A stretch of 48,686 bases of DNA from NCBI RefSeq assembly GCF_008274215.1, contig NZ_VTPS01000019.1, positions 1 to 48,686 of the forward strand, in the 5' to 3' direction. Under the pieces are notes generated by a model. That model made no database searches. It was not told the origin of the DNA and saw only the letters and a list, made by a program, of their open reading frames with translations. This document shows positions 5,831-44,334 of this stretch, one piece after another (positions within the stretch are counted from its first letter, which is position 1; every line of letters starts with the position of its first letter). The position numbers and the translations under genes were made by a program. This stretch comes from Calorimonas adulescens (GTDB taxonomy: Bacteria; Bacillota; Thermoanaerobacteria; Thermoanaerobacterales; UBA4877).

Positions 5831-6886
5831 TTATGATAATATATGCGGCAGTGCATACCTGACGTTGCCATCCCTGCCTGTTACGGTCTCTGCTGTATAG
5901 AGGGAGTCTATGACAGCCTCCTCGGTAGCCTCTACTACTGCCTTAAAGAGACTGCTCATGGCCTCACTGTTTTGATTTATTACTTCTATCGTATATACAG
6001 GGTTTTCCGGCGAATGTTCAATGATATTCTTTGTGGAAAAGGCCACGGCTATATCGCCACTGCCATTACTCATATATGAACCTGTCCTGGCCAGGCCAAG
6101 TGGCACTCTTCTTGCCAGCCTCTTTAAGCTATGAGGGCCTAAAGGGGCGTCAGTTGCCACAATGACTATACATGAGCCGTCATCACTATATCCATCAGGG
6201 TAGTCTTTTAACATCTCTCCTACTGGTATGCCCTTTATCATCAGGTCTTTCCTGCGGCCAAAATTGGTTAGGGTAAGCACACCCACTGTGTATCCTTCGG
6301 GTGTTATGCGTGAGGAGGTACCTATGCCCCCCTTGAACTCGAAGCACGACATCCCCTTGCCTGCACCAATATCCCCTGTCTCTATCTCTCCACCCTTAGC
6401 ATTCTCTATGGCAGAAAAGACGTGCTCTTTTTTGACGTGCCTACCCTGTATGTCATTTAAGTAGCCGTCATTGCACTCTAAGACTACCGGGTTTACTGTG
6501 CCTGTGGTTATTCCTATCTCGGGGTTTTTGGTTATCATGTATTCTACAAGGGCGTCAGAGGCCAGGCCGACGTTTAGCGTATTTGTGAGTAATATTGGCG
6601 TCTCAATATAACCCAGCTCATCTATCTGGATAAGCCCAACTGACTTGCCAAATCCATTTCCTACATAGCAGGCTGCAGGGACCTTTTTTTTAAAGAGATT
6701 GCCTCCATGGGGCAGGACTGCTGTCACACCGGTCCTGGCTGGGCCCTTACCAGGGACGAGCTTACCCTCCCCAAAGCAGACGGTGGTATGCCCCACCAGT
6801 ACGCCTTCCACATCGGTTATGGAGTTGTATTGTCCTGTATTCATACTGCCAATAGCGATTCCGTATTCCCTTATTCTTTTTCTCAA
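5831..6886 (-). CDS. P1 (DmpA/S58) family peptidase
   Basis: This 351-residue cytoplasmic enzyme belongs to the L-aminopeptidase/D-esterase group. The family's self-cleaving Gly-Ser pair is visible as G237-S238 in DDGSCIVIVATDAPLG, where the new N-terminal Ser acts as nucleophile. The GIGTSSR block (about 188-193) and the SNGSGD block (273-278) are also conserved. The start is TTG at 6886, preceded by GGGGGTG; no better start is present. It is divergent from the chloride transporter gene, and no partner gene is evident. Members cleave N-terminal residues from small peptides or amides; the natural substrate is usually unknown. Confidence 0.88.
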   Translation of the reverse strand: MRKRIREYGIAIGSMNTGQYNSITDVEGVLVGHTTVCFGEGKLVPGKGPARTGVTAVLPHGGNLFKKKVPAACYVGNGFGKSVGLIQIDELGYIETPILLTNTLNVGLASDALVEYMITKNPEIGITTGTVNPVVLECNDGYLNDIQGRHVKKEHVFSAIENAKGGEIETGDIGAGKGMSCFEFKGGIGTSSRITPEGYTVGVLTLTNFGRRKDLMIKGIPVGEMLKDYPDGYSDDGSCIVIVATDAPLGPHSLKRLARRVPLGLARTGSYMSNGSGDIAVAFSTKNIIEHSPENPVYTIEVINQNSEAMSSLFKAVVEATEEAVIDSLYTAETVTGRDGNVRYALPHILS

Positions 6887-19792: not shown

Positions 19793-21490
19793 ATGAACGT
19801 CATATTTATAGAGATGGTGAACAGGTTAGGAACAATAGTAACCGTCGCCTTTATACTTTCCAGGCTGGATTTGTTTAAAAGGATTATACTTGGCCGTGAT
19901 ATAAACAGGGTCTCAAAGATTTTAATGACGGTAATTTTTGGGGCATTTGGAATACTTGGGACATATACCGGTGTACCGATAAATGGTGCTCTGGCCAACT
20001 CCAGGGCTGTGGGTGTTATTATTGCCGGGCTCTTAGGGGGACCATGGGTGGGCCTTGGTGCCGGTGTCATTTCCGGATTGCATCGGTGGGCCATAGATAT
20101 TGGAGGTTTTACAGCCTTTGCCTGTGCAGTGTCTACAATTGCAGAAGGTTTTGTCTCAGGTATGTTGTCTAAGGGATATGCAAACGCTAAAAATAGTTTT
20201 GTATCTGCTTTTTTGATTGGGGCTTTGTGCGAGACGATGCAGATGGGGATAATACTCCTGCTGGCCAGGCCTTTTTCTGAGGCTCTTGGGCTGGTACGCA
20301 TCATATGGATCCCCATGAGCATGATTAACGCTGCCGGAATAGCCATATTTATGATGATACTGGACATTATATATAAGGAACAGGAAAGACTGAAGGCTGG
20401 CCAGGCCCAGCTTGCTATGGATATAGCCGAAAAGACGCTCCCCTACTTCAGAGGCGAGTTTGATTCAGATAGCGCCTATAATGTGGCAAAAATCATCTAT
20501 GAGATGACTGACCTTGATGCGGTGGCTTTTACAGACAGGGATAAGATTCTGGCTCATGTTGGCTGTGGGAGTGACCATCACGTAGCCGGGGACCCCGTAC
20601 GCACCAGCCTTACCAGAGAGGTGCTAAGGACAGGAGAAATAAAGGTGGCTGTGCATAAAGAAGGAATAGAGTGCTCCCATGGGGGCTGTCCGTTAAGGTC
20701 AGCGGTCGTGTCACCTTTATATAAAAAGGACCAGATGATAGGGGTTCTCAAACTGTACAGGAAAAGGGAAAATGCCATTACAGAGACTGATATCAACCTG
20801 GCGAAAGGCCTGGCCGGCCTCATATCCACCCAACTGGAGCTTACAGAACTGGAGCTGCAGAATAAACTCCTGGAGGAAGCGAGGTTCAAGGCACTTCAGG
20901 CCCAGATAAACCCTCATTTTCTTTTCAACTCCATAAACACAATTATATCCGTATCGCGCATGGACCCTGAAAAGTCCAGGAAACTCCTTTTGGACCTGGC
21001 CACATTTTTCAGACGCAATCTGGAGATTGATAAGGCAAAAATACCACTGTCTAAGGAACTGGAACATGTGAGAGCCTTTGTAGCCATAGAAGAGGCGAGG
21101 TTTGGAGACAGGATAAAAGTGGAAATAAATGCTGACGATGTAGATGGCATCTTTTTGCCGCCATTGACCCTTCAGCCGCTGGTGGAGAATGCCATCAAGC
21201 ATGGCCTCCTGCCAAAGGATGATGGAGGCAGGGTAAGGATAGACGTGATAAGAAGGGGCATGTATGCCGAGATAAAGGTTGAGGACAACGGCATGGGAAT
21301 GGATGAAACCTTTGATACGAGGACACCGAATCCTGAACATGTTGGTCTCTATAATGTAGACTCGAGGCTTAGGAGTATGTTTGGAGATGGGTGCGGCATT
21401 CATATAGCAAGCACAAAAGGAAAGGGCACCACCATAAGTTTTGAGGTACCTTGTCAGGAGGTGGTTCAGTTTGAAAGCATTGCTGGTTGA
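19793..21490 (+). CDS. LytS/BtsS-type sensor histidine kinase
   Basis: A sensor kinase with a 5TMR-LYT membrane domain (about residues 1-195), a GAF-like domain (about 205-350) and a His-kinase module. The phospho-acceptor is His375 in QAQINPHFLFNSINTI, and the ATPase N-box is LQPLVENAIKHGL. Starts at GTG 19748 and ATG 19757 are possible, but the ATG at 19793 has GAGGTGG at 5 bases and matches the usual LytS N-terminus. It overlaps the response regulator gene and precedes a CstA-type transporter, the same gene association as the pyruvate-sensing BtsSR-BtsT system of E. coli. The ligand is therefore plausibly pyruvate or a related acid (inference). Confidence 0.88.
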   Translation: MNVIFIEMVNRLGTIVTVAFILSRLDLFKRIILGRDINRVSKILMTVIFGAFGILGTYTGVPINGALANSRAVGVIIAGLLGGPWVGLGAGVISGLHRWAIDIGGFTAFACAVSTIAEGFVSGMLSKGYANAKNSFVSAFLIGALCETMQMGIILLLARPFSEALGLVRIIWIPMSMINAAGIAIFMMILDIIYKEQERLKAGQAQLAMDIAEKTLPYFRGEFDSDSAYNVAKIIYEMTDLDAVAFTDRDKILAHVGCGSDHHVAGDPVRTSLTREVLRTGEIKVAVHKEGIECSHGGCPLRSAVVSPLYKKDQMIGVLKLYRKRENAITETDINLAKGLAGLISTQLELTELELQNKLLEEARFKALQAQINPHFLFNSINTIISVSRMDPEKSRKLLLDLATFFRRNLEIDKAKIPLSKELEHVRAFVAIEEARFGDRIKVEINADDVDGIFLPPLTLQPLVENAIKHGLLPKDDGGRVRIDVIRRGMYAEIKVEDNGMGMDETFDTRTPNPEHVGLYNVDSRLRSMFGDGCGIHIASTKGKGTTISFEVPCQEVVQFESIAG

Positions 21491-22282: not shown

Positions 22283-23701
22283 ATGATAACGTTTTTTGTA
22301 TCAATAGTAATACTTATCTTAGGATACTTCACATACGGCGCATTTGTGGAAAGGGTTTTCGGAGCTGACGAGGATAGAAAGACACCAGCATACTTGAGAC
22401 AGGATGGCATCGATTACGTTCCTATGGACTGGAAGAACAACAGCCTGATCCAGTTATTGAACATTGCAGGGCTTGGTCCAATTTACGGGGCAATACAGGG
22501 GGCTCTCTGGGGACCGTGGGCTTTCATATGGATTGTACTCGGTGGAATATTTGCTGGTGCGGTCCATGATTACCTTTCCGGGATGCTTTCTATAAGGAAT
22601 GATGGGGCTAACGTCCCTGCTATGGTTGGGAAGTATTTGGGGAAAGGTATGCAGTCTTTTGTAAACATATTTTCCATTTTACTTTTAATACTAGTTGGGG
22701 CCACATTTACCACGGGGCCAGCAGGTCTGCTGGCATCCATGACACCATTGTCGCTGAAGGTATGGGTCATGATAATAATAGCCTATTATTTTATAGCAAC
22801 AGTATTGCCCATTGATAAGATTATAGGCAGGATTTATCCTTTTTTTGGTGCCCTTTTGATAATAATGGCGCTGGGTGTTGGTGTAATGATGGTATATAAC
22901 GGTGCTCCCATCCCTGAGCTCACTCTTGCCAATCTCCATCCCAAAGGAGCACCTGTATGGCCGCTGCTCTTTGTAACTATTGCCTGTGGCGCCATATCAG
23001 GCTTTCATGCAACCCAATCGCCCCTTGTGGCACGCTGCACGAAAAATGAGAAAGAGGGAAGGTTTATATTTTACGGAATGATGATTGCCGAGTCCATAAT
23101 AGCCCTTATCTGGGCTGCAGCCGCTATGTCTTTCTATGACGGTACGGCAGGACTGGGTGCTGCATTGGCAAACCCTGCAGGGCCATCGGGTGTGGTTAAA
23201 GAAGTGTCAATGAAGCTCTTAGGACCTATTGGAGGGACACTGGCTGTGCTTGGTGTCGTTGTCCTTCCTATCACATCGGGAGATACAGCATTTAGAGGGG
23301 CCAGGCTTACCATAGCAGAGATCCTGAATATGGACCAGATAAAGCCGCTTAAAAGGTACCTCATAGCAGTACCGCTATTTATAATCGGTTTTGTACTCAC
23401 CCAGATAGATTTCTCTATAATATGGAGATATTTCGCATGGTCAAACCAGACCCTTGCCATGATAATGCTCTGGACAGGGGCCGCCTATCTGGCAAGAGAA
23501 AGGAAATTCCACTGGATCGCCACAATACCTGCCACATTTATGACAGCGGTCAGCATCACATATATTCTTATGGCACCAGAGGGTTTCAAGCTTTCAACAA
23601 CGATTGCCTATCCTGTTGGCCTGGCCGCAGCCCTTATAGCCTTCATAGCTTTTATGATCAGTGCATACAGATGGGCCGGGCAGCCGGTATATGAAGAATA
23701 G
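22283..23701 (+). CDS. cstA: CstA family carbon starvation protein / pyruvate or peptide carrier
   Basis: This 472-residue membrane protein has the CstA signature YVPMDWKNNSLIQLLNIAGL, GAIQGALWGPWAF, GAVHDYLSGMLS, and GFHATQSPLVARC. It is the shorter form common in Clostridia. Family members take up pyruvate (BtsT, CstA in E. coli) or have been linked to peptide use. Its position after a LytS/LytTR pair supports sensor-controlled uptake of a small nutrient. RBS GAGGGG precedes the ATG, and a strong terminator follows at once. Confidence 0.92.
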   Translation: MITFFVSIVILILGYFTYGAFVERVFGADEDRKTPAYLRQDGIDYVPMDWKNNSLIQLLNIAGLGPIYGAIQGALWGPWAFIWIVLGGIFAGAVHDYLSGMLSIRNDGANVPAMVGKYLGKGMQSFVNIFSILLLILVGATFTTGPAGLLASMTPLSLKVWVMIIIAYYFIATVLPIDKIIGRIYPFFGALLIIMALGVGVMMVYNGAPIPELTLANLHPKGAPVWPLLFVTIACGAISGFHATQSPLVARCTKNEKEGRFIFYGMMIAESIIALIWAAAAMSFYDGTAGLGAALANPAGPSGVVKEVSMKLLGPIGGTLAVLGVVVLPITSGDTAFRGARLTIAEILNMDQIKPLKRYLIAVPLFIIGFVLTQIDFSIIWRYFAWSNQTLAMIMLWTGAAYLARERKFHWIATIPATFMTAVSITYILMAPEGFKLSTTIAYPVGLAAALIAFIAFMISAYRWAGQPVYEE

Positions 23702-36017: not shown

Positions 36018-39014
36018 TTGAAAGAAAGATTAATAGAACTTATTGAAAATGAAGACAAGAAAAATCCATATACAGATGGTCAGATTGCCAAGATTTTAGG
36101 TTTGTCAAGAGGACAAGTTACTACGCTGCGTATGGAGATAGACATACCTAACTCTAGGGAGAGGCTTAAATCCGTTTTAGTTAAAGAAATAAATGACATA
36201 CTATCAAAAAATGGGAACATGTCAGATAGAAAGTTAACAGCTATATTAAAAGGGCGTGGCTTTGATATATCGAGATACAGTGTAGCCCAAATTAGAAAAG
36301 AGCTTGGGATTGTAACTGAAAATTGTAGTACAGGATATATGAGTACTTATGATTGTGTTTCAAAAGAGAATGTTAATGCTAAAAGGCCTGTTGAAGGCGT
36401 ATGTTCTGAAGCAAAAATAGCTGGTGAGGAAACGTTTGAAGAGCTGATAGGTTATAATGGTAGCCTAAAATTACAGATTCAACAAGCTAAAGCTGCTGTT
36501 CTCTATCCACCTCACGGGTTGCACACACTTATCATTGGCCCTACAGGTACAGGTAAGAGTATGCTTGCAGAGGCGATGTACAGATTTGCCATAAAGTGTG
36601 GTAAATTATCTGAATCTGCACCATTTGTTGTGTTTAATTGTGCTGATTATGCAGAAAATCCACAATTGCTTATATCTCAACTTTTTGGACATGTAAAAGG
36701 GGCATTTACAGGTGCACATACTGATAAAGAAGGGCTTGTGGAAAAAGCAAATGGAGGAATACTTTTCTTGGATGAGGTCCACAGGCTTCCATCAGAGGGT
36801 CAAGAACTGTTATATTATCTACTTGATAAGGGCAAATTTAGAAGACTAGGAGAGACTGGGAGTACAAGGAAGGCCAATGTCATGATCATTGCTGCAACCA
36901 CAGAGGATATCCAATCGTCATTACTTTTGACATTCAGACGGAGGATTCCAATGGTCATTGAACTGCCTCTGCTTTCATCGAGACCTCTTATAGAGAGATA
37001 CATGATTATCAATAATTTTTTTAACAAAGAGGCAACTAAAATAGGTGTCAGTATTGAAATATCTGGTGAAGCATTAAGACTTCTTCTGCTGTATGACTGT
37101 CCTGGCAATATAGGACAGCTCCAGAGTGATATTCAGGTTATATGTGCCAGAGGCTTTTTAGCATATATGAGCATTCCACACAGAAATAACAAAACCATTA
37201 AAATTGATTTAGATGATCTTCCACCACATATAAGGCAAGGTATTCTCAACGTACAGAAACGGCTACCAGAAATAGAGGAAATGGTTGAAAGCCACCTTCT
37301 TATAAATCCCGGTGAGGATAAAGAAGAGATTTTTGATTATAACAATCCATATGTGTTATCGGGTGAGATATATAGATACATAGAAAAAAAATACAGTGAG
37401 CTTAGAAATAGGGGTATGGGGGAAAGTGAGATTAAACGCCAGATAGGTGGCCAACTGGAGATCAGATTTAAACGGGTTATGCGGCGATTTGAAAATAATT
37501 TTCCTATTATGAGCCGTGAGGAGCTTGCGGAGATAGTTGGCCAGGATATAATTGACATGGTTGACAAAATGAGGTTTATTGCAGAAAAAGGGTTAAACAA
37601 AAGGATGAACAATCATATTTTTGCGTGTATTTCTATTCACCTGAATGCAGCTATAGATAGGATAAGAAACAATAAAACGATAATCAATCCAAGGCTTGAT
37701 AAGATTAAATCTGATTACAAGCGGGAATATTATATAGCACGGGATATGATACAGATATTGGAGGATAATACAGGAATTAAGTTCCCTGATGATGAGGTCG
37801 GTTTTATCGCTATGTATCTCCGGATGCTAACAAGCCCAGAAGAGGTGGCGGTAGGAAAGGTAGGTGTGGTGGTGATAACTCATGGACATGTTGCTAAGGG
37901 GATGGCAGAGGTTGCAAATCGGTTATTAGGCGTTAATCACGCGATTGGTATAGAGATGTCTCTTGATGAAAAACCGGAATCCGCCCTGCTAAGAGCCACT
38001 GAAGCTGTCAAGATAGCTAATGAGGGGAAGGGTGTAATATTGCTGGTAGATATGGGCTCACTTGTGACCTTTGGGGAGATTATAACTCAAAGGACAGGCA
38101 TACCGACCAGGACAATCAGCAGAGTAGATACAGTTATGGTTCTTGAGACCGTTAGAAGAGCTATACTCCCTGATGCAGAGATTGACGATATTGTAGAAGA
38201 CATAGGAGGGGACATGGTTGGTATAAGCAGGCTTATGCCTGTAAATTCACAGGTGGTAAAGGACAGCGCTATCATCACCATATGTATTACCGGTGAAGGA
38301 ACGGCGATGAGGATTAAAAATCTTTTGATGAAAATGATACCAGGTATAAATGATAGGGTAGACATCATCCCGTTAGGGGTACTAGATAGTGAGGATATAA
38401 ATCTTGCTATAGATAGGATAAAAGCAGAAAAAGACGTTATAGCAATAGTTGGAACACTAAACCCTGGCAGGAAGGATATACCTTTTATATCTATAGAGGA
38501 TGTTATAAATGGTAAGGCAGCTTCAAAACTTGGTAGTATTCTGGATATTGATTTAAAAGTTTTACCTGAGAGTTTTATTAAATTGTCACCTCTTTCCAGT
38601 GTAATATATCCAGAGCTCATAAGGATTCATCCTGAATATCATTCAAAGGATGAAGTACTTCAAGATTTGGTCCAACTTTTAATAGATAATGGTTTTGTTA
38701 ATGAAAAATTTCTATTGGATGTGTATAGGCGTGAGATAATCGTGCCTACACTGATAGAGAATGGTATTGCCATACCCCATGGTACTCCTGAAAACGTATA
38801 CAAATCAGGTGTTGCAATTGCAATCTTGAAAGAACCTATTAAATGGATGGAAAAAAATGTGGTAGATATTGTTTTTATGTTTGCAGTGAAGGAAGATGAC
38901 AGAGAAATACCTGCCTATCTTTACAGGTTTATCAAAAACAAGGAATTTGTCAGGTACTTAAAACAACTCAAAACACCTGAGTATGTGAAAAATGCCTTTA
39001 TTGATTTAAACTAA
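36018..39014 (+). CDS. LevR-type sigma-54-dependent PTS operon activator
   Basis: A 998-residue regulator. An N-terminal HTH region (about 1-100) leads to an AAA+ sigma-54 activator domain with Walker A GPTGTGKS (174-181), the sigma-54 contact loop GAFTGA (228-233) and Walker B GGILFLDE. Next come a PRD (about 490-610), an EIIA-Man-like domain (THGHVAKGMAEVANRLLG), an EIIB-like domain with Cys in CITGEGTA and, unusually, a C-terminal EIIA-Fru-like domain with His in GIAIPHGTPENV. PTS phosphorylation of these sites sets its activity. The start is TTG at 36018 after GGAGGTGG. It almost surely activates the promoter at 39125-39139. Confidence 0.92.
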   Translation: MKERLIELIENEDKKNPYTDGQIAKILGLSRGQVTTLRMEIDIPNSRERLKSVLVKEINDILSKNGNMSDRKLTAILKGRGFDISRYSVAQIRKELGIVTENCSTGYMSTYDCVSKENVNAKRPVEGVCSEAKIAGEETFEELIGYNGSLKLQIQQAKAAVLYPPHGLHTLIIGPTGTGKSMLAEAMYRFAIKCGKLSESAPFVVFNCADYAENPQLLISQLFGHVKGAFTGAHTDKEGLVEKANGGILFLDEVHRLPSEGQELLYYLLDKGKFRRLGETGSTRKANVMIIAATTEDIQSSLLLTFRRRIPMVIELPLLSSRPLIERYMIINNFFNKEATKIGVSIEISGEALRLLLLYDCPGNIGQLQSDIQVICARGFLAYMSIPHRNNKTIKIDLDDLPPHIRQGILNVQKRLPEIEEMVESHLLINPGEDKEEIFDYNNPYVLSGEIYRYIEKKYSELRNRGMGESEIKRQIGGQLEIRFKRVMRRFENNFPIMSREELAEIVGQDIIDMVDKMRFIAEKGLNKRMNNHIFACISIHLNAAIDRIRNNKTIINPRLDKIKSDYKREYYIARDMIQILEDNTGIKFPDDEVGFIAMYLRMLTSPEEVAVGKVGVVVITHGHVAKGMAEVANRLLGVNHAIGIEMSLDEKPESALLRATEAVKIANEGKGVILLVDMGSLVTFGEIITQRTGIPTRTISRVDTVMVLETVRRAILPDAEIDDIVEDIGGDMVGISRLMPVNSQVVKDSAIITICITGEGTAMRIKNLLMKMIPGINDRVDIIPLGVLDSEDINLAIDRIKAEKDVIAIVGTLNPGRKDIPFISIEDVINGKAASKLGSILDIDLKVLPESFIKLSPLSSVIYPELIRIHPEYHSKDEVLQDLVQLLIDNGFVNEKFLLDVYRREIIVPTLIENGIAIPHGTPENVYKSGVAIAILKEPIKWMEKNVVDIVFMFAVKEDDREIPAYLYRFIKNKEFVRYLKQLKTPEYVKNAFIDLN

Positions 39015-39042: not shown

Positions 39043-39075
39043 AAATGTGCAGAGTCACCCTCTGCACATTTTTTT
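39043..39075 (+). terminator. Terminator after the LevR-type gene
   Basis: AAATGTGCAGAG and CTCTGCACATTT form a near-perfect 12-bp stem around a short loop, followed by TTTTTT. It isolates the regulator gene from the PTS operon. Confidence 0.85.
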
Positions 39076-39111
39076 AAGTGGTTAGTCATCATATTAAAAA
39101 TAAAAACCAAT

Positions 39112-39155
39112 TCTGCCATTATGTTGGCACGAAAATTGCTTCATATAATGGCAGA
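39112..39155 (+). promoter_or_regulatory. Sigma-54 promoter framed by an 11-bp inverted repeat
   Basis: TGGCAC (39125-39130), five bases, then TTGC (39136-39139) is a consensus -24/-12 sigma-54 promoter. It is centred inside a perfect inverted repeat, TCTGCCATTAT (39112-39122) and ATAATGGCAGA (39145-39155). The right arm covers the expected transcription start. No further activator site was recognised upstream, although the 35 bases before the repeat are very A-rich. Confidence 0.8.
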
Positions 39156-39180
39156 CATGACGAAGGAGTGATTGTAGAAA

Positions 39181-39633
39181 ATGTTGGATGAAGATTTAAT
39201 TTTAATAAACTTTGTTGCAAAGGATAAAGAGGAATTGCTGGAGAAAATGGCAAGCATTATGACACAAAAGGGGCTAGTAAAAAAGACATATATACGTTCA
39301 ATACTGGAAAGGGAAAAAACCTTTCCTACAGGTCTACCTGCTGATGGATTTGGTATTGCTATTCCACATACTTATCCTGATCATGTTGAGGAAACTGCCA
39401 TGGTTGTTGCCACGCTCAAAGATCCGATAAGATTTCATGTCATGGGTAGCCCTGATAATGAAATAGATGTAAAAATAGTATTTATGCTGGCTGTTAAAGA
39501 TCCAAACAAGCAGATACAACTGCTAAAAAACCTTATGAATATTTTTCAAGATAGGGAGGCATTGCAAAATTTGATTGATTCAAATGATAAAAAGGAGGTG
39601 TTAAACTTATTGAGCAAATATCTGAACATATAA
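39181..39633 (+). CDS. PTS EIIA component, galactitol/fructose type
   Basis: This 150-residue phosphocarrier accepts phosphate from HPr on H63 (FGIAIPHTYPDHV) and passes it to EIIB. The sequence fits the GatA-type EIIA of the fructose-mannitol superfamily. It is the first gene after the sigma-54 promoter, with AAGGAG about 10 bases before the ATG. Together with the next two genes it forms a complete EIIA-EIIB-EIIC permease. Confidence 0.9.
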   Translation: MLDEDLILINFVAKDKEELLEKMASIMTQKGLVKKTYIRSILEREKTFPTGLPADGFGIAIPHTYPDHVEETAMVVATLKDPIRFHVMGSPDNEIDVKIVFMLAVKDPNKQIQLLKNLMNIFQDREALQNLIDSNDKKEVLNLLSKYLNI

Positions 39634-39678
39634 AAGAAATTTTCAGTACAATATCTGACAGAAAATGGAGGGGTAAAA

Positions 39679-39984
39679 ATGACGAAAGATAGGGTATTCA
39701 ATGTATTGTCAATCTGCGGCTCAGGAACTGTAAGTTCATCAATGGTGGCTGAAAAACTCAAGGAGAGGCTTTCTGAAAAAGGAGTGAGGATTAACACCAT
39801 AGAGGCCAGGCCAACTGAGGTAGCTAACTATGTCTCGAGAGGGGGAATAGATTTTATTGTAACCACGAGCCCGCTGCCAGGGGAATATGACATACCGGTA
39901 ATAAATGCAGTGGGATTTTTGACAGGATTTGACGAGGAAGGATTTATGGACGAGGTCATAAATGTCATCAGCAAAATGCAATAG
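39679..39984 (+). CDS. PTS EIIB component, galactitol type
   Basis: This 101-residue EIIB has the phospho-Cys C13 in the loop SICGSGTVSSSM, typical of GatB. It receives phosphate from EIIA and gives it to the sugar alcohol bound to EIIC. RBS GGAGGGG lies 5 bases before the ATG. The gene contains a GGCCAGGCC site in Glu-Ala-Arg-Pro codons, the only copy of this repeat inside the PTS region. Confidence 0.9.
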   Translation: MTKDRVFNVLSICGSGTVSSSMVAEKLKERLSEKGVRINTIEARPTEVANYVSRGGIDFIVTTSPLPGEYDIPVINAVGFLTGFDEEGFMDEVINVISKMQ

Positions 39985-40008
39985 AAATTAATTTAAGGAG
40001 GGAATAAA

Positions 40009-41430
40009 GTGCTTGAAATTTTAAATAATATTTTCAATACCTTCAGTGCCCCGGTATTTGTACCTGTAATACTATTCTTTATAGCGCTGATTTTACGTGT
40101 AGATACTAAGAAAGCGTTTTTCTCAGCGCTATATGCAGGTATAGGACTTGAGGGTTTTACACTCCTTTTAAACTCCTATGTTCCTATTGTTGTACCAGTA
40201 GTGCAGAAAATGGTTACAAATACAGGCGTTAATCTTCCAATATTTGATATTGGATGGCAGGCAGCATCAGTTGTGGCTTATTCAACAACTGTGGGAATGA
40301 TATTCCTGGGTCTTGGTATAGTGCTTCAATTGGCCCTATTCCTGGTTAGATGGACAGACATATTTCAACCCAGTGATCTATGGAATAACTACTCATATAT
40401 GGCATGGGGCTCTATGATATACCTTATAACAAAAAACATGATGCTCTCGATATTATGTATGGTGGTATTAAATCTTTACAGCCTCCTGTTTTCTGAAATA
40501 GTAGCTAAGAGATGGTCTAAATATTATAATTATCCAAACTGCACCATCATTCAGCTTCACCATGTTGAGACAGTTCCTTTTGCAATATTAATGAACTGGA
40601 TACTCAGTAAACTTGGAGCTGACAAGATAAAATTGGATCCTCCAACTCTGCAGAAAAAACTTGGATTTATAGGAGAACCCATAACCCTGGGTTTACTTTT
40701 AGGGTTACTCATTGGGATACTTGGCAATTTAAGTTCTCTTGGCACACTTGCAGCATGGGGACAGATAGCCATATGTGGTATATCAACAAGTGCTGTTATG
40801 GCAATATTCCCAAGGATAGCAGGTCTTTTTGCACAGGCTTTCCTACCTTTGACGGAAGCTACAAAGAAGAGTGTAAAGGGAGCTACTAAGGCTCGTGAAT
40901 GGTATCTTGGTGTAAATGATGCAACAGGTTATGGTGAAACAGCTACGCTGACAACAGGAATAATATTGATTCCTATTATGGTACTACTGGCTATCATACT
41001 TCCAGGTAACAGGACTTTGCCACTTGTTGATCTCATAGCACTCCCATATATGGTTGAGGTATTTGTAGCAATGTCCAATGGAAATATGTTTAAGTCCATC
41101 ATTTCAGGAGCTATATGGTTTAGCATCGGACTTTATATCACAACCTTTACAGCACCATTCTTTACACAGGTGGCAGCACAGGTCGGTGTGAGTATACCAG
41201 AAACAGCACTTATGATAACAAGCTTTGGAATACTTGCAAAACCGCTTGTTTCGCTGATATTCCTTGCTTTTTTGAGCCAGTCATGGCTTCTAATTGGGAT
41301 TGTGCTGGCAATTTATTTTGTAATATTTTTCTACTTCAAGAGGAACAAGTCTGTTATATACAATTATATTGAAAGAAGTGCAGTCGGCAATGATGAGTCT
41401 GAAGGTGATTTAAATACAGCGAATTCTTAA
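40009..41430 (+). CDS. PTS EIIC component, galactitol type
   Basis: This 473-residue membrane transporter is of the GatC family, with about 10-12 hydrophobic segments. Family-like blocks include AGIGLEGFTLLLNSYV near residue 45 and DATGYGETATLTTGIILI near residue 305. It carries the substrate in while EIIB phosphorylates it. The start is GTG at 40009 after GGAGGG. Specificity for galactitol, arabitol, ribitol or another polyol cannot be told from the sequence. Confidence 0.9.
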   Translation: MLEILNNIFNTFSAPVFVPVILFFIALILRVDTKKAFFSALYAGIGLEGFTLLLNSYVPIVVPVVQKMVTNTGVNLPIFDIGWQAASVVAYSTTVGMIFLGLGIVLQLALFLVRWTDIFQPSDLWNNYSYMAWGSMIYLITKNMMLSILCMVVLNLYSLLFSEIVAKRWSKYYNYPNCTIIQLHHVETVPFAILMNWILSKLGADKIKLDPPTLQKKLGFIGEPITLGLLLGLLIGILGNLSSLGTLAAWGQIAICGISTSAVMAIFPRIAGLFAQAFLPLTEATKKSVKGATKAREWYLGVNDATGYGETATLTTGIILIPIMVLLAIILPGNRTLPLVDLIALPYMVEVFVAMSNGNMFKSIISGAIWFSIGLYITTFTAPFFTQVAAQVGVSIPETALMITSFGILAKPLVSLIFLAFLSQSWLLIGIVLAIYFVIFFYFKRNKSVIYNYIERSAVGNDESEGDLNTANS

Positions 41431-41450: not shown

Positions 41451-41484
41451 TATAATGGACACCTTCTAGAAGGTGTCCATTATA
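41451..41484 (+). other. 34-bp perfect palindrome between EIIC and the dehydrogenase
   Basis: Both halves of TATAATGGACACCTTCT / AGAAGGTGTCCATTATA match perfectly without a spacer. In RNA it would form a very stable hairpin. No T run follows, so it is not a standard terminator. It may be an mRNA processing or stability element that separates transporter from enzyme expression. Confidence 0.6.
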
Positions 41485-41518
41485 AATCTGTGGTTTCCAT
41501 AGAATGAAGCTGTATTTC

Positions 41519-41536
41519 TGCCATACTATAATGACA
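41519..41536 (+). promoter_or_regulatory. Possible second promoter/operator in the PTS operon
   Basis: TGCCAT-ACTATA-ATGACA is an imperfect inverted repeat containing a -10-like TATAAT. TTCTGCCAT here repeats the left arm of the inverted repeat at the sigma-54 promoter (39111-39119), hinting at a common DNA-binding protein. Confidence 0.3.
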
Positions 41537-41582: not shown

Positions 41583-42650
41583 ATGTCTACCAAAATTGTA
41601 GTGGTGGGAGACATATTTGTAAGTCCTGATAACCTGGAAAGGGCAGCAGAAAAATTAAATCTACCGGATAAAAAAATCGTTAAACTGGAATGGAAGACAA
41701 AAGACAAAGACAAATTTCAAGAAAAGGCCTTGAATATCGAAAAGAATGGTCCAGAGTCGGAAGATACAGCAGAAGGTTTATTAGGTGAGATAAAGGATGC
41801 CGATGTACTCTTAGTACACTTTGCACCGATACCCAGAAGGATAATTGAGGCGGCGGAAAAACTGAGATTTATAGGCTGCTGCCGTGGTGGGTTTGAAAAT
41901 ATCGACATTGAGGCGGCCACTGAGATGGGTATACCTGTACTGCATGTAATCAGAAATGCTGAGCCAGTAGCAGAATACACTGTTGGGCTTATACTAAGTG
42001 AGATAAGAAACATTGCCAGAAGTCATGAGGCCATTAAGAGGGGAATATGGAGAAAAGAGTTTTCAAACAGTAATATCCTCTCCACAATTAAAGGTAAAAA
42101 TATAGGAATTGTGGGCCTTGGGCATATAGGCAAATTGGTCGCAAAAAAGTTGTCGGCTTTTAATGTCAATCTTTTAGGTCATGATCCCTATGTCATTGAA
42201 TCAGATCTTAAAGAGCATGGGATTGACATACAGATGCTCCCCATAGAGGAGTTGTTTAAAGAAAGTGATATAATTACAATACACGTAAGGTTAACAGAGG
42301 AAACAGAAGGTATTATAAACCATAGGCTGATTTCATTAATGAAACCTACTGCATACCTGATTAATACTGCGAGAGCAGGGCTTATAAATGAGGCAGATAT
42401 ATGCAGGGCTTTAGAAGAGAAACGGATTGCAGGGGCAGCACTGGATGTGTTTTGGCAAGAACCGATACCTGAAGACCATATACTGCTTAGATTAGATAAT
42501 GTCACGCTTACATCGCATCTTGCCGGTGATACGGTAGATGCCATACCTCAGTCGCCAAATCTACTCGTTGAAGTAGTTAATGACTATATTGAAAAGGGCA
42601 AAAGTGATATGATAGTAAATCAGATTGCATTACAAAAAAAGAGGAGGTAA
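41583..42650 (+). CDS. D-isomer-specific 2-hydroxyacid dehydrogenase
   Basis: This 355-residue NAD-dependent enzyme has the Rossmann motif GLGHIG (178-183) and the catalytic set R264 (NTARAGLINE), E293 (VFWQEP) and H312 (TSHLAG). It resembles phosphoglycerate dehydrogenase without the regulatory ACT domain. In this operon it probably handles a 2-hydroxyacid or 2-ketoacid made from the sugar alcohol, for example after aldol cleavage gives glycolaldehyde or lactaldehyde (inference). It is followed by the aldolase gene after 6 bases. Confidence 0.88.
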   Translation: MSTKIVVVGDIFVSPDNLERAAEKLNLPDKKIVKLEWKTKDKDKFQEKALNIEKNGPESEDTAEGLLGEIKDADVLLVHFAPIPRRIIEAAEKLRFIGCCRGGFENIDIEAATEMGIPVLHVIRNAEPVAEYTVGLILSEIRNIARSHEAIKRGIWRKEFSNSNILSTIKGKNIGIVGLGHIGKLVAKKLSAFNVNLLGHDPYVIESDLKEHGIDIQMLPIEELFKESDIITIHVRLTEETEGIINHRLISLMKPTAYLINTARAGLINEADICRALEEKRIAGAALDVFWQEPIPEDHILLRLDNVTLTSHLAGDTVDAIPQSPNLLVEVVNDYIEKGKSDMIVNQIALQKKRR

Positions 42651-42656
42651 TAAACT

Positions 42657-43301
42657 ATGCTACTTGAAGAAGAGAGGAATTTAATTGTTGCGTATGGAAA
42701 GAACCTTATAACACATAATCTTACAACCGGCACAGGCGGCAATCTCAGTATCTTTAATAAGAAAGAGGGCCTTATGGCGATAAGCCCAAGCGGGATTGAC
42801 TACTTTGAGACAAAGCCGGAGGACGTTGTCATAATGGACCTTGAGGGAAAGATAGTAGACGGAACAAGAAAGCCATCCAGTGAGTATGAGATGCACAGGA
42901 TATTTTACAGAAAGAGGGAAGACGTTGGAGCTGTGGTTCATACACACTCTACTTATTCTACAGTTATTTCCTGTCTCAGATGGACAATCCCAGCGGTACA
43001 TTATCTGGTAGCCTTCGCAGGTAAGGACGTGAGATGCGCAGAGTATGCCACATTTGGTACAAGAGAGATTGCTGAAAATGCCTTTGAAGGAATGAAGGAT
43101 AGAAACGCCGTCCTGCTTGCCAACCATGGTCTTTTAGCAGTTGGCCCCGATTTACCCTCGGCCTTTAATACTGCAGAAGAGGTTGAGTTTTGTGCAGAGA
43201 TCTATTACAGGACAAAGTGTATCGGCGAGCCTGTGGTCCTTCCGGACGACGAGATGGAGCTGATGATGGAAAAGTTTAAGACTTACGGCCAGAAGAGGTG
43301 A
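42657..43301 (+). CDS. Class II (FucA/AraD-type) sugar-phosphate aldolase
   Basis: This 214-residue zinc aldolase of the fuculose-phosphate aldolase family has all key residues: N29 in GTGGNLS, SPSG at 43-46, the catalytic acid E76 (SSEYEMH), and zinc ligands H95, H97 (VVHTHSTYS) and H157 (LANHGLL). It would cleave a ketose-1-phosphate into DHAP and an aldehyde. RBS GGAGG is close. Its last 150 bases (43149-43298) are duplicated with 6 mismatches at 45140-45289. Confidence 0.9.
   Translation: MLLEEERNLIVAYGKNLITHNLTTGTGGNLSIFNKKEGLMAISPSGIDYFETKPEDVVIMDLEGKIVDGTRKPSSEYEMHRIFYRKREDVGAVVHTHSTYSTVISCLRWTIPAVHYLVAFAGKDVRCAEYATFGTREIAENAFEGMKDRNAVLLANHGLLAVGPDLPSAFNTAEEVEFCAEIYYRTKCIGEPVVLPDDEMELMMEKFKTYGQKR
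43149..43298 (+). repeat. Duplicated aldolase 3' segment, partner at 45140-45289
   Basis: The 150 bases of the aldolase 3' end recur at 45140-45289 with 6 mismatches (about 96% identity by eye). One mismatch turns an in-frame GAG into TAG in the second copy. The second copy leads directly into a terminator hairpin and the LysM gene, without the alcohol dehydrogenase. Confidence 0.85.
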
Positions 43302-43305
43302 TAGT

Positions 43306-44334
43306 ATGAAAGTAGCACTCTATTATGGTCCGGAGACGATTAAGATAGAGGATAGACCCATACCTGAACCAGGGCCCGGAGAGATAGTTATAAAAAACAA
43401 GATTGCATTTACATGTGGTACTGACGTTAAGACCTTCTTTAGAGGATATCCACTATGGGACCCGCCATATCCCTTTGGACATGAGGCTGCCGGAGATATC
43501 TATGCAGTAGGTGAGGGAGTAGAAGGATTTGCTATAGGAGATAGGGTTATAGCCCATAATTCTGCCCCGTGCAACAGGTGCTATTACTGTAAGAAGGGCC
43601 AACATTCCATGTGTGAAAATCTACTCTTTAATCTGGGGGCTTTTTCAGAGTATCAACTTATTCCTAAAGAGATTGTGGAGCAGAATACTTTTAAAATACC
43701 AGATGGTATCGACTATAAGGATGCTGCGCTTACAGAGCCATTTGCCTGTGCAGTCCATGGGATTGAGGAAGCAGGGATATCACTGGGAGACACAGTCATT
43801 ATAAATGGGGCAGGTCCTCTTGGTCTTATGATGACGAGGTTGGCATATCTAAAAGGTGCCAGGGTAATAACTGTAGATCTATCTCAAAAAAGATTGGAGA
43901 TGGCAAAAAAGCTTGGGGCTTCAATTGTTATGAATGTCAGGGACATTGAAGATCAGGTGGCTGCAGTCAGGCAATTTACTGAGGATAACAGAGGGGCTGA
44001 TGTGGCAATAGAGGCTGTGGGGTCACCAGAGTTATGGGAGAAAACTGTAAGGATGGTCAGAAAGGGTGGGACATCCATACTGTTTGGGGGACCCAAAGCA
44101 GGTACAACAATAACACTGGATACAAACTTCATGCATTATTCACAGATAACAATCAAGGGTATTTTTCATACAACACCGAGGTTTGTCCAGGCCGCATTTA
44201 ATCTTATCTGCCAGGGAGTTATCCATGGCAATGACTTTGTCGGCAGTGAGTATCCGTTGGAGAAATTGGAGGAAGCTATAAGGAGCCACAAAGAAGGAAG
44301 GGTAATAAAAAATGCCATTGTGTTTGAAGATTGA
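43306..44334 (+). CDS. Zinc-dependent medium-chain polyol dehydrogenase
   Basis: This 342-residue MDR-family dehydrogenase has catalytic zinc ligands C37 (CGTD) and H59-E60 (GHE). The structural zinc Cys are C89, C92, C95 and C103, and the NAD motif is GAGPLG (168-173). It resembles sorbitol, galactitol-1-phosphate and threonine dehydrogenases. Likely role: oxidise the imported polyol phosphate to a ketose phosphate, the aldolase substrate. The ATG is 4 bases after the aldolase stop, with AGAAGAGGTG upstream. A strong hairpin terminates the operon. Confidence 0.9.
   Translation: MKVALYYGPETIKIEDRPIPEPGPGEIVIKNKIAFTCGTDVKTFFRGYPLWDPPYPFGHEAAGDIYAVGEGVEGFAIGDRVIAHNSAPCNRCYYCKKGQHSMCENLLFNLGAFSEYQLIPKEIVEQNTFKIPDGIDYKDAALTEPFACAVHGIEEAGISLGDTVIINGAGPLGLMMTRLAYLKGARVITVDLSQKRLEMAKKLGASIVMNVRDIEDQVAAVRQFTEDNRGADVAIEAVGSPELWEKTVRMVRKGGTSILFGGPKAGTTITLDTNFMHYSQITIKGIFHTTPRFVQAAFNLICQGVIHGNDFVGSEYPLEKLEEAIRSHKEGRVIKNAIVFED

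Follow-up and report, generated by a model that had tools for sequence, protein, structure and literature searches.

Gene order and the sigma-54 promoter

The window, by which we mean the whole stretch of 48,686 nucleotides that was analysed, carries a gene for a LevR-like sigma-54 activator of 998 amino acids (36018–39014, + strand; identified by Pfam scan), the intrinsic terminator of that gene (39043–39071, + strand; a 12-pair stem followed by a T run) and, behind a sigma-54 promoter, the target operon on the same strand. The first genes of the operon encode PTS EIIA, EIIB and EIIC proteins of the galactitol type (39181–41430, + strand). Genes for a 2-hydroxyacid dehydrogenase, a class II (fuculose-phosphate type) aldolase and a zinc dehydrogenase follow at 41583–44334 (+ strand), and their order and strand suggest that they form the rest of this putative operon. 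The gap between the EIIC and dehydrogenase genes contains a perfect inverted repeat without spacer (41451–41484; TATAATGGACACCTTCT/AGAAGGTGTCCATTATA), at which our terminator scan gave no call and which is possibly a processing or attenuation site inside the operon. Elsewhere in the window, at 20000–21000, the Pfam scan found a LytS-like protein with 5TM-5TMR_LYT, GAF and histidine kinase domains.

The sigma-54 core TGGCACGAAAATTGCT (TGGCAC-N5-TTGCT; 39125–39140, + strand) fits the consensus TGGCAY-N5-TTGCW exactly and lies between the two arms of an inverted repeat, 39112–39122 and 39145–39155 (both given on the + strand), which are 11 nt each, 100% complementary and separated by a spacer of 22 nt. 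We take the C of the -12 GC (39139) to be position -12, by convention, which puts +1 at 39151 and the arms at -39 to -29 and -6 to +5. The earlier note had described a perfect repeat framing the core with its arms over the flank and the start site, and both observations were confirmed. Shuffling of the flanks produced a matching 11-bp repeat in the same slot in 2 of 40,000 cases, in a test that was post hoc. In total, the window contains six perfect inverted repeats of at least 11 bp with a spacer of at most 60: three have loops of 0–5 nt, the terminator at 39043–39071 among them, and three have spacers of 22–32 nt, including the one at 39112–39155. Counted unmerged, repeats number 18 in the real window versus a mean of 1.15 in block-shuffled windows. 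The exact repeat of 39112–39155 occurs once in its own genome and is absent from the 36 other genomes of the class. As single-strand DNA it is predicted to fold with -10.4 kcal/mol (z -3.1).

A conserved element precedes the -24 box

The upstream arm contains the TCTGCCA part of a conserved 13-bp element, whose end it forms (ACnAAAnnTGCCA / ACCAATTCTGCCA; 39106–39118, + strand, -45 to -33). A matrix of 48 sites from which the window had been left out (consensus ACAAAATATGCCA) gives the element 15.2 bits, the second best match in the window; with a motif derived from distal regions only, it scores 15.3 bits and ranks third among ~97,000 window positions. The ACnAAA preceding TGCCA, overlooked in the earlier note, is conserved too. 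For the comparison we used the best 80 of 120 loci on named contigs, together with 18 matches from 24 genomes of the order, and a profile of the N-terminus identified 95 regulators among the loci. The sigma-54 sites beside these regulators gave 54 rows for promoters downstream of a regulator and 67 for the promoters of the regulators' own genes; because the rows are related sequences, such counts are not fully independent. At many of these promoters, those of related PTS operons as well as of their regulators' own genes, the scoring copies end 4–7 bp short of the -24 box, the offsets -21 and -16 being unused. Leave-one-out scoring of the slot in front of the -24 box, with three spacings allowed, placed 41 of 76 non-redundant promoters above the 99% shuffle level, which the other 35 did not reach. 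The distal-only motif exceeded the same level in the proximal slot at 21 of 32 PTS promoters and 24 of 44 own-gene promoters, and a proximal copy was present in three of five promoters that had not been used before.

Together, TGCCA (39114–39118) and the TGGCA of the -24 box (39125–39129) make up a conserved inverted repeat in which the upstream half-site is paired with the -24 box. The two are 9–12 bp apart from centre to centre, 11 bp in the window, or about one helical turn. The spacing of the proximal copy varies over 4 bp, which makes rigid contact with sigma-54 improbable. Nor is the proximal copy obligatory, since 11 of 77 promoters have no copy at all, proximal or distal, and 13 own-gene and five PTS promoters have distal copies only; the own promoter of the nearest paralogue in the same genome (L025) is without a proximal copy as well (-4.6). 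Judged by these alignments, what is conserved is TGCCA-N4-7-TGGCA, the latter being the -24 box; the 11-bp two-arm repeat is real, but it is not the functional unit.

Of the two arms, the upstream one is conserved, in its TGCCA part only, and the downstream arm (39145–39155) is not. By the conservation test that the earlier note had set, the framing of the core by two arms fails: in 117 promoter rows, some of them redundant, the next-longest repeat measures 8 bp, and none of the 116 other rows has a longer one across the core; both arms together, as a repressor operator would have them, were not found conserved at these promoters. The site in the downstream arm scores at background, with 0.5 bits by the matrix trained without the window, 2.1 bits by the distal-only motif and ranks in the hundreds within the window, and on these scores we rejected it as a full second activator site. 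No true orthologue of the operon was found, and the most similar EIIC proteins (60% and 58%) are encoded out of reach of any sigma-54 site. On this comparison, the downstream arm is probably accidental and without a general role.

The partial copy of the repeat reported at 41516, the 9-mer TTCTGCCAT, is indeed present, but the site that includes it (41511–41523) scores at background and was rejected as a functional site. The 9-mer has four occurrences in the window against 0.77 expected, a number reached by one of 100 shuffles. A fair inverted copy of the motif overlaps the start of the EIIA gene (39172–39184; 10.6 bits with the distal motif and 5.7 with the other matrix).

Distal copies of the same motif

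A motif search was run on the distal part of own-gene promoters only and was thus blind to the proximal element. From the distal regions of 50 such promoters it returned, de novo, the motif ACAAATTATGCCA with 182 bits, versus 47–53 in three shuffled sets, and this motif is nearly identical to the proximal consensus. Distal copies of at least 12 bits number 33 at 44 own-gene promoters and 19 at 33 PTS promoters, where dinucleotide shuffles lead one to expect 1.1 and 0.6, respectively. For the operon in the window, a distal copy lies at 38860–38872 on the - strand (TGGTAGATATTGT as read on the + strand), within the 3'-terminal part of the regulator gene. It scores 15.6 bits with the distal-only motif (rank 2 of ~97,000) and 14.4 bits with the other matrix, and a weak tandem copy is found 12 bp upstream of it (38848–38860; 7.5 bits, rank 53).

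As 35 of the 54 downstream rows start no more than 25 nt from the regulator's stop codon, distal copies at these promoters must fall within the regulator gene. Across 61 regulator genes, 49 copies fall in the last 300 nt, some of them proximal copies overlapping the gene end, versus 22.4 under synonymous shuffling; the middle of the genes holds 80 versus 69.7. We rejected pure coding constraint as the source of the gene-internal copies, since it explains only part of them, but that part makes the coding copies weaker evidence than those lying before regulator genes. The position of the distal copies, and the UAS of Bacillus subtilis LevR that passages of PMC10864463 place at -125 at the lev operon, suggest that these copies may act as an enhancer.

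Several arrangements were seen in addition. Tandem distal copies exactly 12 bp apart lie ~80–100 bp before the -24 box at the own promoters of L064, L067, L071, L153 and L161. In Brevibacillus massiliensis (L078, ~6260–6353), four copies in alternating orientation, 25–29 bp apart, precede the proximal copy and are possibly a hexamer-scale enhancer. At the own promoters of L059–L062, L064, L067, L069 and L071, TTGCATAAAATGTG or close variants form an inverted motif overlapping the -12 box and extending to about -3, an arrangement of one clade that looks like autorepression. The best motif match of the window, at 23522–23534 (17.7 and 18.0 bits), is ~15 kb from the operon and probably a chance occurrence.

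The regulator carries two RpoN-like domains

The regulator consists, in order, of tandem RpoN-like DNA-binding domains (residues ~1–50 and ~51–105), an AAA+ domain with GAFTGA, a PRD, an EIIA-Man domain and an EIIA type 2 domain. The AAA+ domain matches Sigma54_activat with 142.9 bits, the GAFTGA being present in the translation, and the domains C-terminal to it score 75.6 (PRD), 53.7 (EIIA-Man) and 102.1 bits (EIIA type 2). The second, truncated C-terminal PRD of B. subtilis LevR was not found; the protein has one PRD match and an EIIA type 2 domain at residues 864–992, and for this reason we call it LevR-like and not LevR. Passages of PMC10864463 report such replacement of the second PRD by EIIA type 2 for some Clostridiales LevR-like proteins.

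Residues 1–111 match the Pfam family PF04552 (Sigma54_DBD) with 44.0 bits against a cut-off of 22.8, and each half passes that cut-off by itself (residues 1–52 and 46–102; 25.8 and 23.0 bits). All 56 of the 56 aligned N-termini of the group match the family (E <= 0.01), and a profile of the N-terminus retrieved RpoN structures of sigma-54 first (2o8k and 2ahq, E ~2e-11). The top Foldseek match of the regulator model (pLDDT 89) was 2o8k, the RpoN domain on -24 DNA, with 40% identity, 1.5 Å and a probability of 1.00, at an E of only 9.1e-3, over one domain. The arginine pair of the RpoN box is incomplete (ReevtklR versus RrtvakyR): the invariant R31 is kept and the second R is replaced, so the domain is a relative of the sigma-54 domain and an identical reading of the -24 box is not implied. 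According to passages of PMC7175178, binding to the -24 region is lost when R456 or R455 of RpoN is changed to alanine; of the corresponding pair, as assigned by alignment, the activator domain retains the first.

In the window's own genome, PF04552 is matched at three places, namely the sigma-54 gene, the window's regulator and one paralogue. There are nine long LevR-type matches in this genome, and only the window's regulator and the paralogue (49% identity) match over the full length, the others aligning from about residue 68–140. The TGCCA of the element mirrors the TGGCA of the -24 box, as expected for RpoN-like domains, and co-occurrence and homology together suggest that the N-terminus of the regulator binds the motif.

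The motif follows one group of regulators

We rejected the view that the motif is a general feature of sigma-54 promoters. Among the 25 perfect sigma-54 sites of the window's own genome, only the window's site (15.2) and that of the paralogue's target (11.4, a value not independent of the matrix training) score above 6, and at LevR-type regulators without the RpoN-like domain one of 10 sites reaches 6 (6.2) and one has a distal copy; the latter comparison covered 13 loci, of which L134 and L136–L138 yielded no site. The combined pattern TGCCA-N4-7-TGGCAY-N5-TTGCW has 10 sites in 24 genomes of the order, each of which adjoins a regulator of this group (L142–L149 by profile; L141, located behind the L044 regulator; and L150, which is the window), and the reversed pattern gave no site in the same 24 genomes. 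Of 398 sampled genomes of the phylum, 30 contain the regulator group, G045 with a partial match only. By its distribution across genomes, the motif is tied to one LevR-like group with two copies of the RpoN domain at the N-terminus.

Proposed mechanism and alternatives

We propose, with a probability of about 0.7, that the neighbouring LevR-like activator binds a 13-bp site whose promoter-facing half is the upstream arm, with distal copies as enhancer, a proximal copy for docking and no general part for the downstream arm. The activator would read DNA with its two tandem sigma-54-type RpoN domains, from which it follows that the half-site TGCCA is a mirror image of the -24 box. The distant copies (38860, within the activator's own gene) would serve as the enhancer. 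At the proximal copy, one helical turn from the -24 box, activator and sigma-54 would sit side by side on one face of the DNA, an arrangement favoured by the spacing of about one turn together with the end of the copies 4–7 bp before the box. The most likely effect of the proximal copy is to dock the activator at the closed complex or to position it there; that this copy aids activation rather than limiting it is the least certain part of the proposal. More tentatively, at somewhat less than even odds, this branch of activators may have taken over the -24-reading domain of sigma-54 in duplicate, so as to form a mixed head-to-head pair with sigma-54 on mirror half-sites and to hand over the AAA+ ring locally, not by a loop alone.

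The inverted copy over the -12 box at the own promoters of one clade makes a limiting role of the proximal copy the main rival. The copy might be a governor or autorepression site, bound by the activator when abundant or inactive, which would then obstruct the closed complex or hold the enhancer loop trapped. It stands before the regulator's own gene as well as before the target, repression alone seems likely where inverted copies cover -12, and the governor sites of NtrC provide a precedent. The 4 to 7 bp left free before the -24 box, with offsets -21 and -16 unused, nevertheless fit co-occupancy better than occlusion, and the copy is common at target operons, which require activation; we regard the limiting role as unlikely, though a serious contender. 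We find it improbable that the downstream arm is a genuine second activator half-site, which would place the promoter of this species between two sites turned towards it. The downstream arm does keep TGGCA, the mirror of TGCCA, and inverted copies lie downstream of the core or overlap it at some own promoters, but the arm has no ACnAA half, its scores and ranks are those of background, and the operon has no true orthologue among those found.

The readings offered in the earlier note fared less well. It had suggested a repressor that competes with the sigma-54 holoenzyme, for which the whole 11-bp repeat would be the operator, and the perfect symmetry exactly around the core, so rarely equalled in the shuffled flanks, speaks for this. 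The repeat is, however, unique to this genome among 37 of the class, the compared promoters reach 8 bp at most, and the upstream arm is accounted for by the activator motif. The conserved site tracks LevR-like activators, and it adjoins but spares the -24 box, which argues against simple competition with sigma-54, leaving a separate repressor very improbable. Extrusion of the repeat as a cruciform that controls promoter opening, the other suggestion, is hardly credible: the single-strand fold is stronger than chance, but the spacer is 22 nt long, the pairing is unconserved and a core promoter in the loop would be lost to sigma-54. Both were rejected as the main reading on the unconserved downstream arm, even though the fold exceeds chance. 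With the broader view that this promoter flank carries a regulator site outside the textbook LevR model we agree.

Comparison with known systems

In the usual picture, sigma-54 activators bind 100–150 bp upstream and reach the promoter by looping. The NtrC governor sites at glnAp2 are activator sites closer to the promoter than the enhancer, and the proximal motif copy resembles them in this respect; unlike the copy, they are not known to lie at a fixed distance abutting the -24 box, and they are read by a Fis-type domain. Like LevR as presented in passages of PMC10864463, the window's regulator is a PTS-controlled sigma-54 activator with an N-terminal DNA-binding part, AAA+ and PRD domains, an adjacent sigma-54 PTS operon and a distal site, which is putative here. 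Unlike B. subtilis LevR, it ends in an EIIA type 2 domain, and it differs from the other LevR-types examined in its own genome, which have unrelated N-termini and, with one marginal exception, promoters without the motif.

Passages of Nie et al. 2019 (PMC6615313) give most Clostridiales UAS as lying 100–250 bp upstream and name AtlR as the activator for pentitols. The AtlR group of these passages resembles ours in consisting of PRD-containing activators and in its genera, which overlap (Clostridioides, Clostridium and Geosporobacter), and its proteins are possibly members of the present group. The AtlR passages of that paper are silent on RpoN-like DNA-binding domains and on motif copies close to the promoter; the AtlR UAS motif, from a 2016 paper, could match the present one. 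The CD0040 promoter given in passages of PMC7438776 matches L098 of our set. The C. difficile arabitol/xylitol promoter of the same paper was sought at L114, L115 and L117, where no site of the pattern used was listed. A literature search confined to papers open without subscription, supplements excluded, returned no RpoN-like domains in activators, which, given that scope, is weak evidence.

Passages of PMC7057263 call the engagement of activator-bound DNA an open question. The regulators described here are a natural group of activators that combine a docking-like site, set at an almost constant spacing to the -24 box, with a DNA-binding part that shares homology with sigma-54 itself, and they lend themselves to structural work on activator, enhancer and closed complex in one assembly. 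The motif can also be used for assigning regulons. With the RpoN domain of sigma-54 (2o8k, 2ahq), the N-terminus of the activator shares a homologous fold, the recognition-helix motif and, as predicted, the half-site TGGCA; it differs from that domain in being duplicated, in standing at the N-terminus of an activator and in the replaced second arginine of the RpoN box, and it appears to be a sigma-factor domain that an activator has put to new use.
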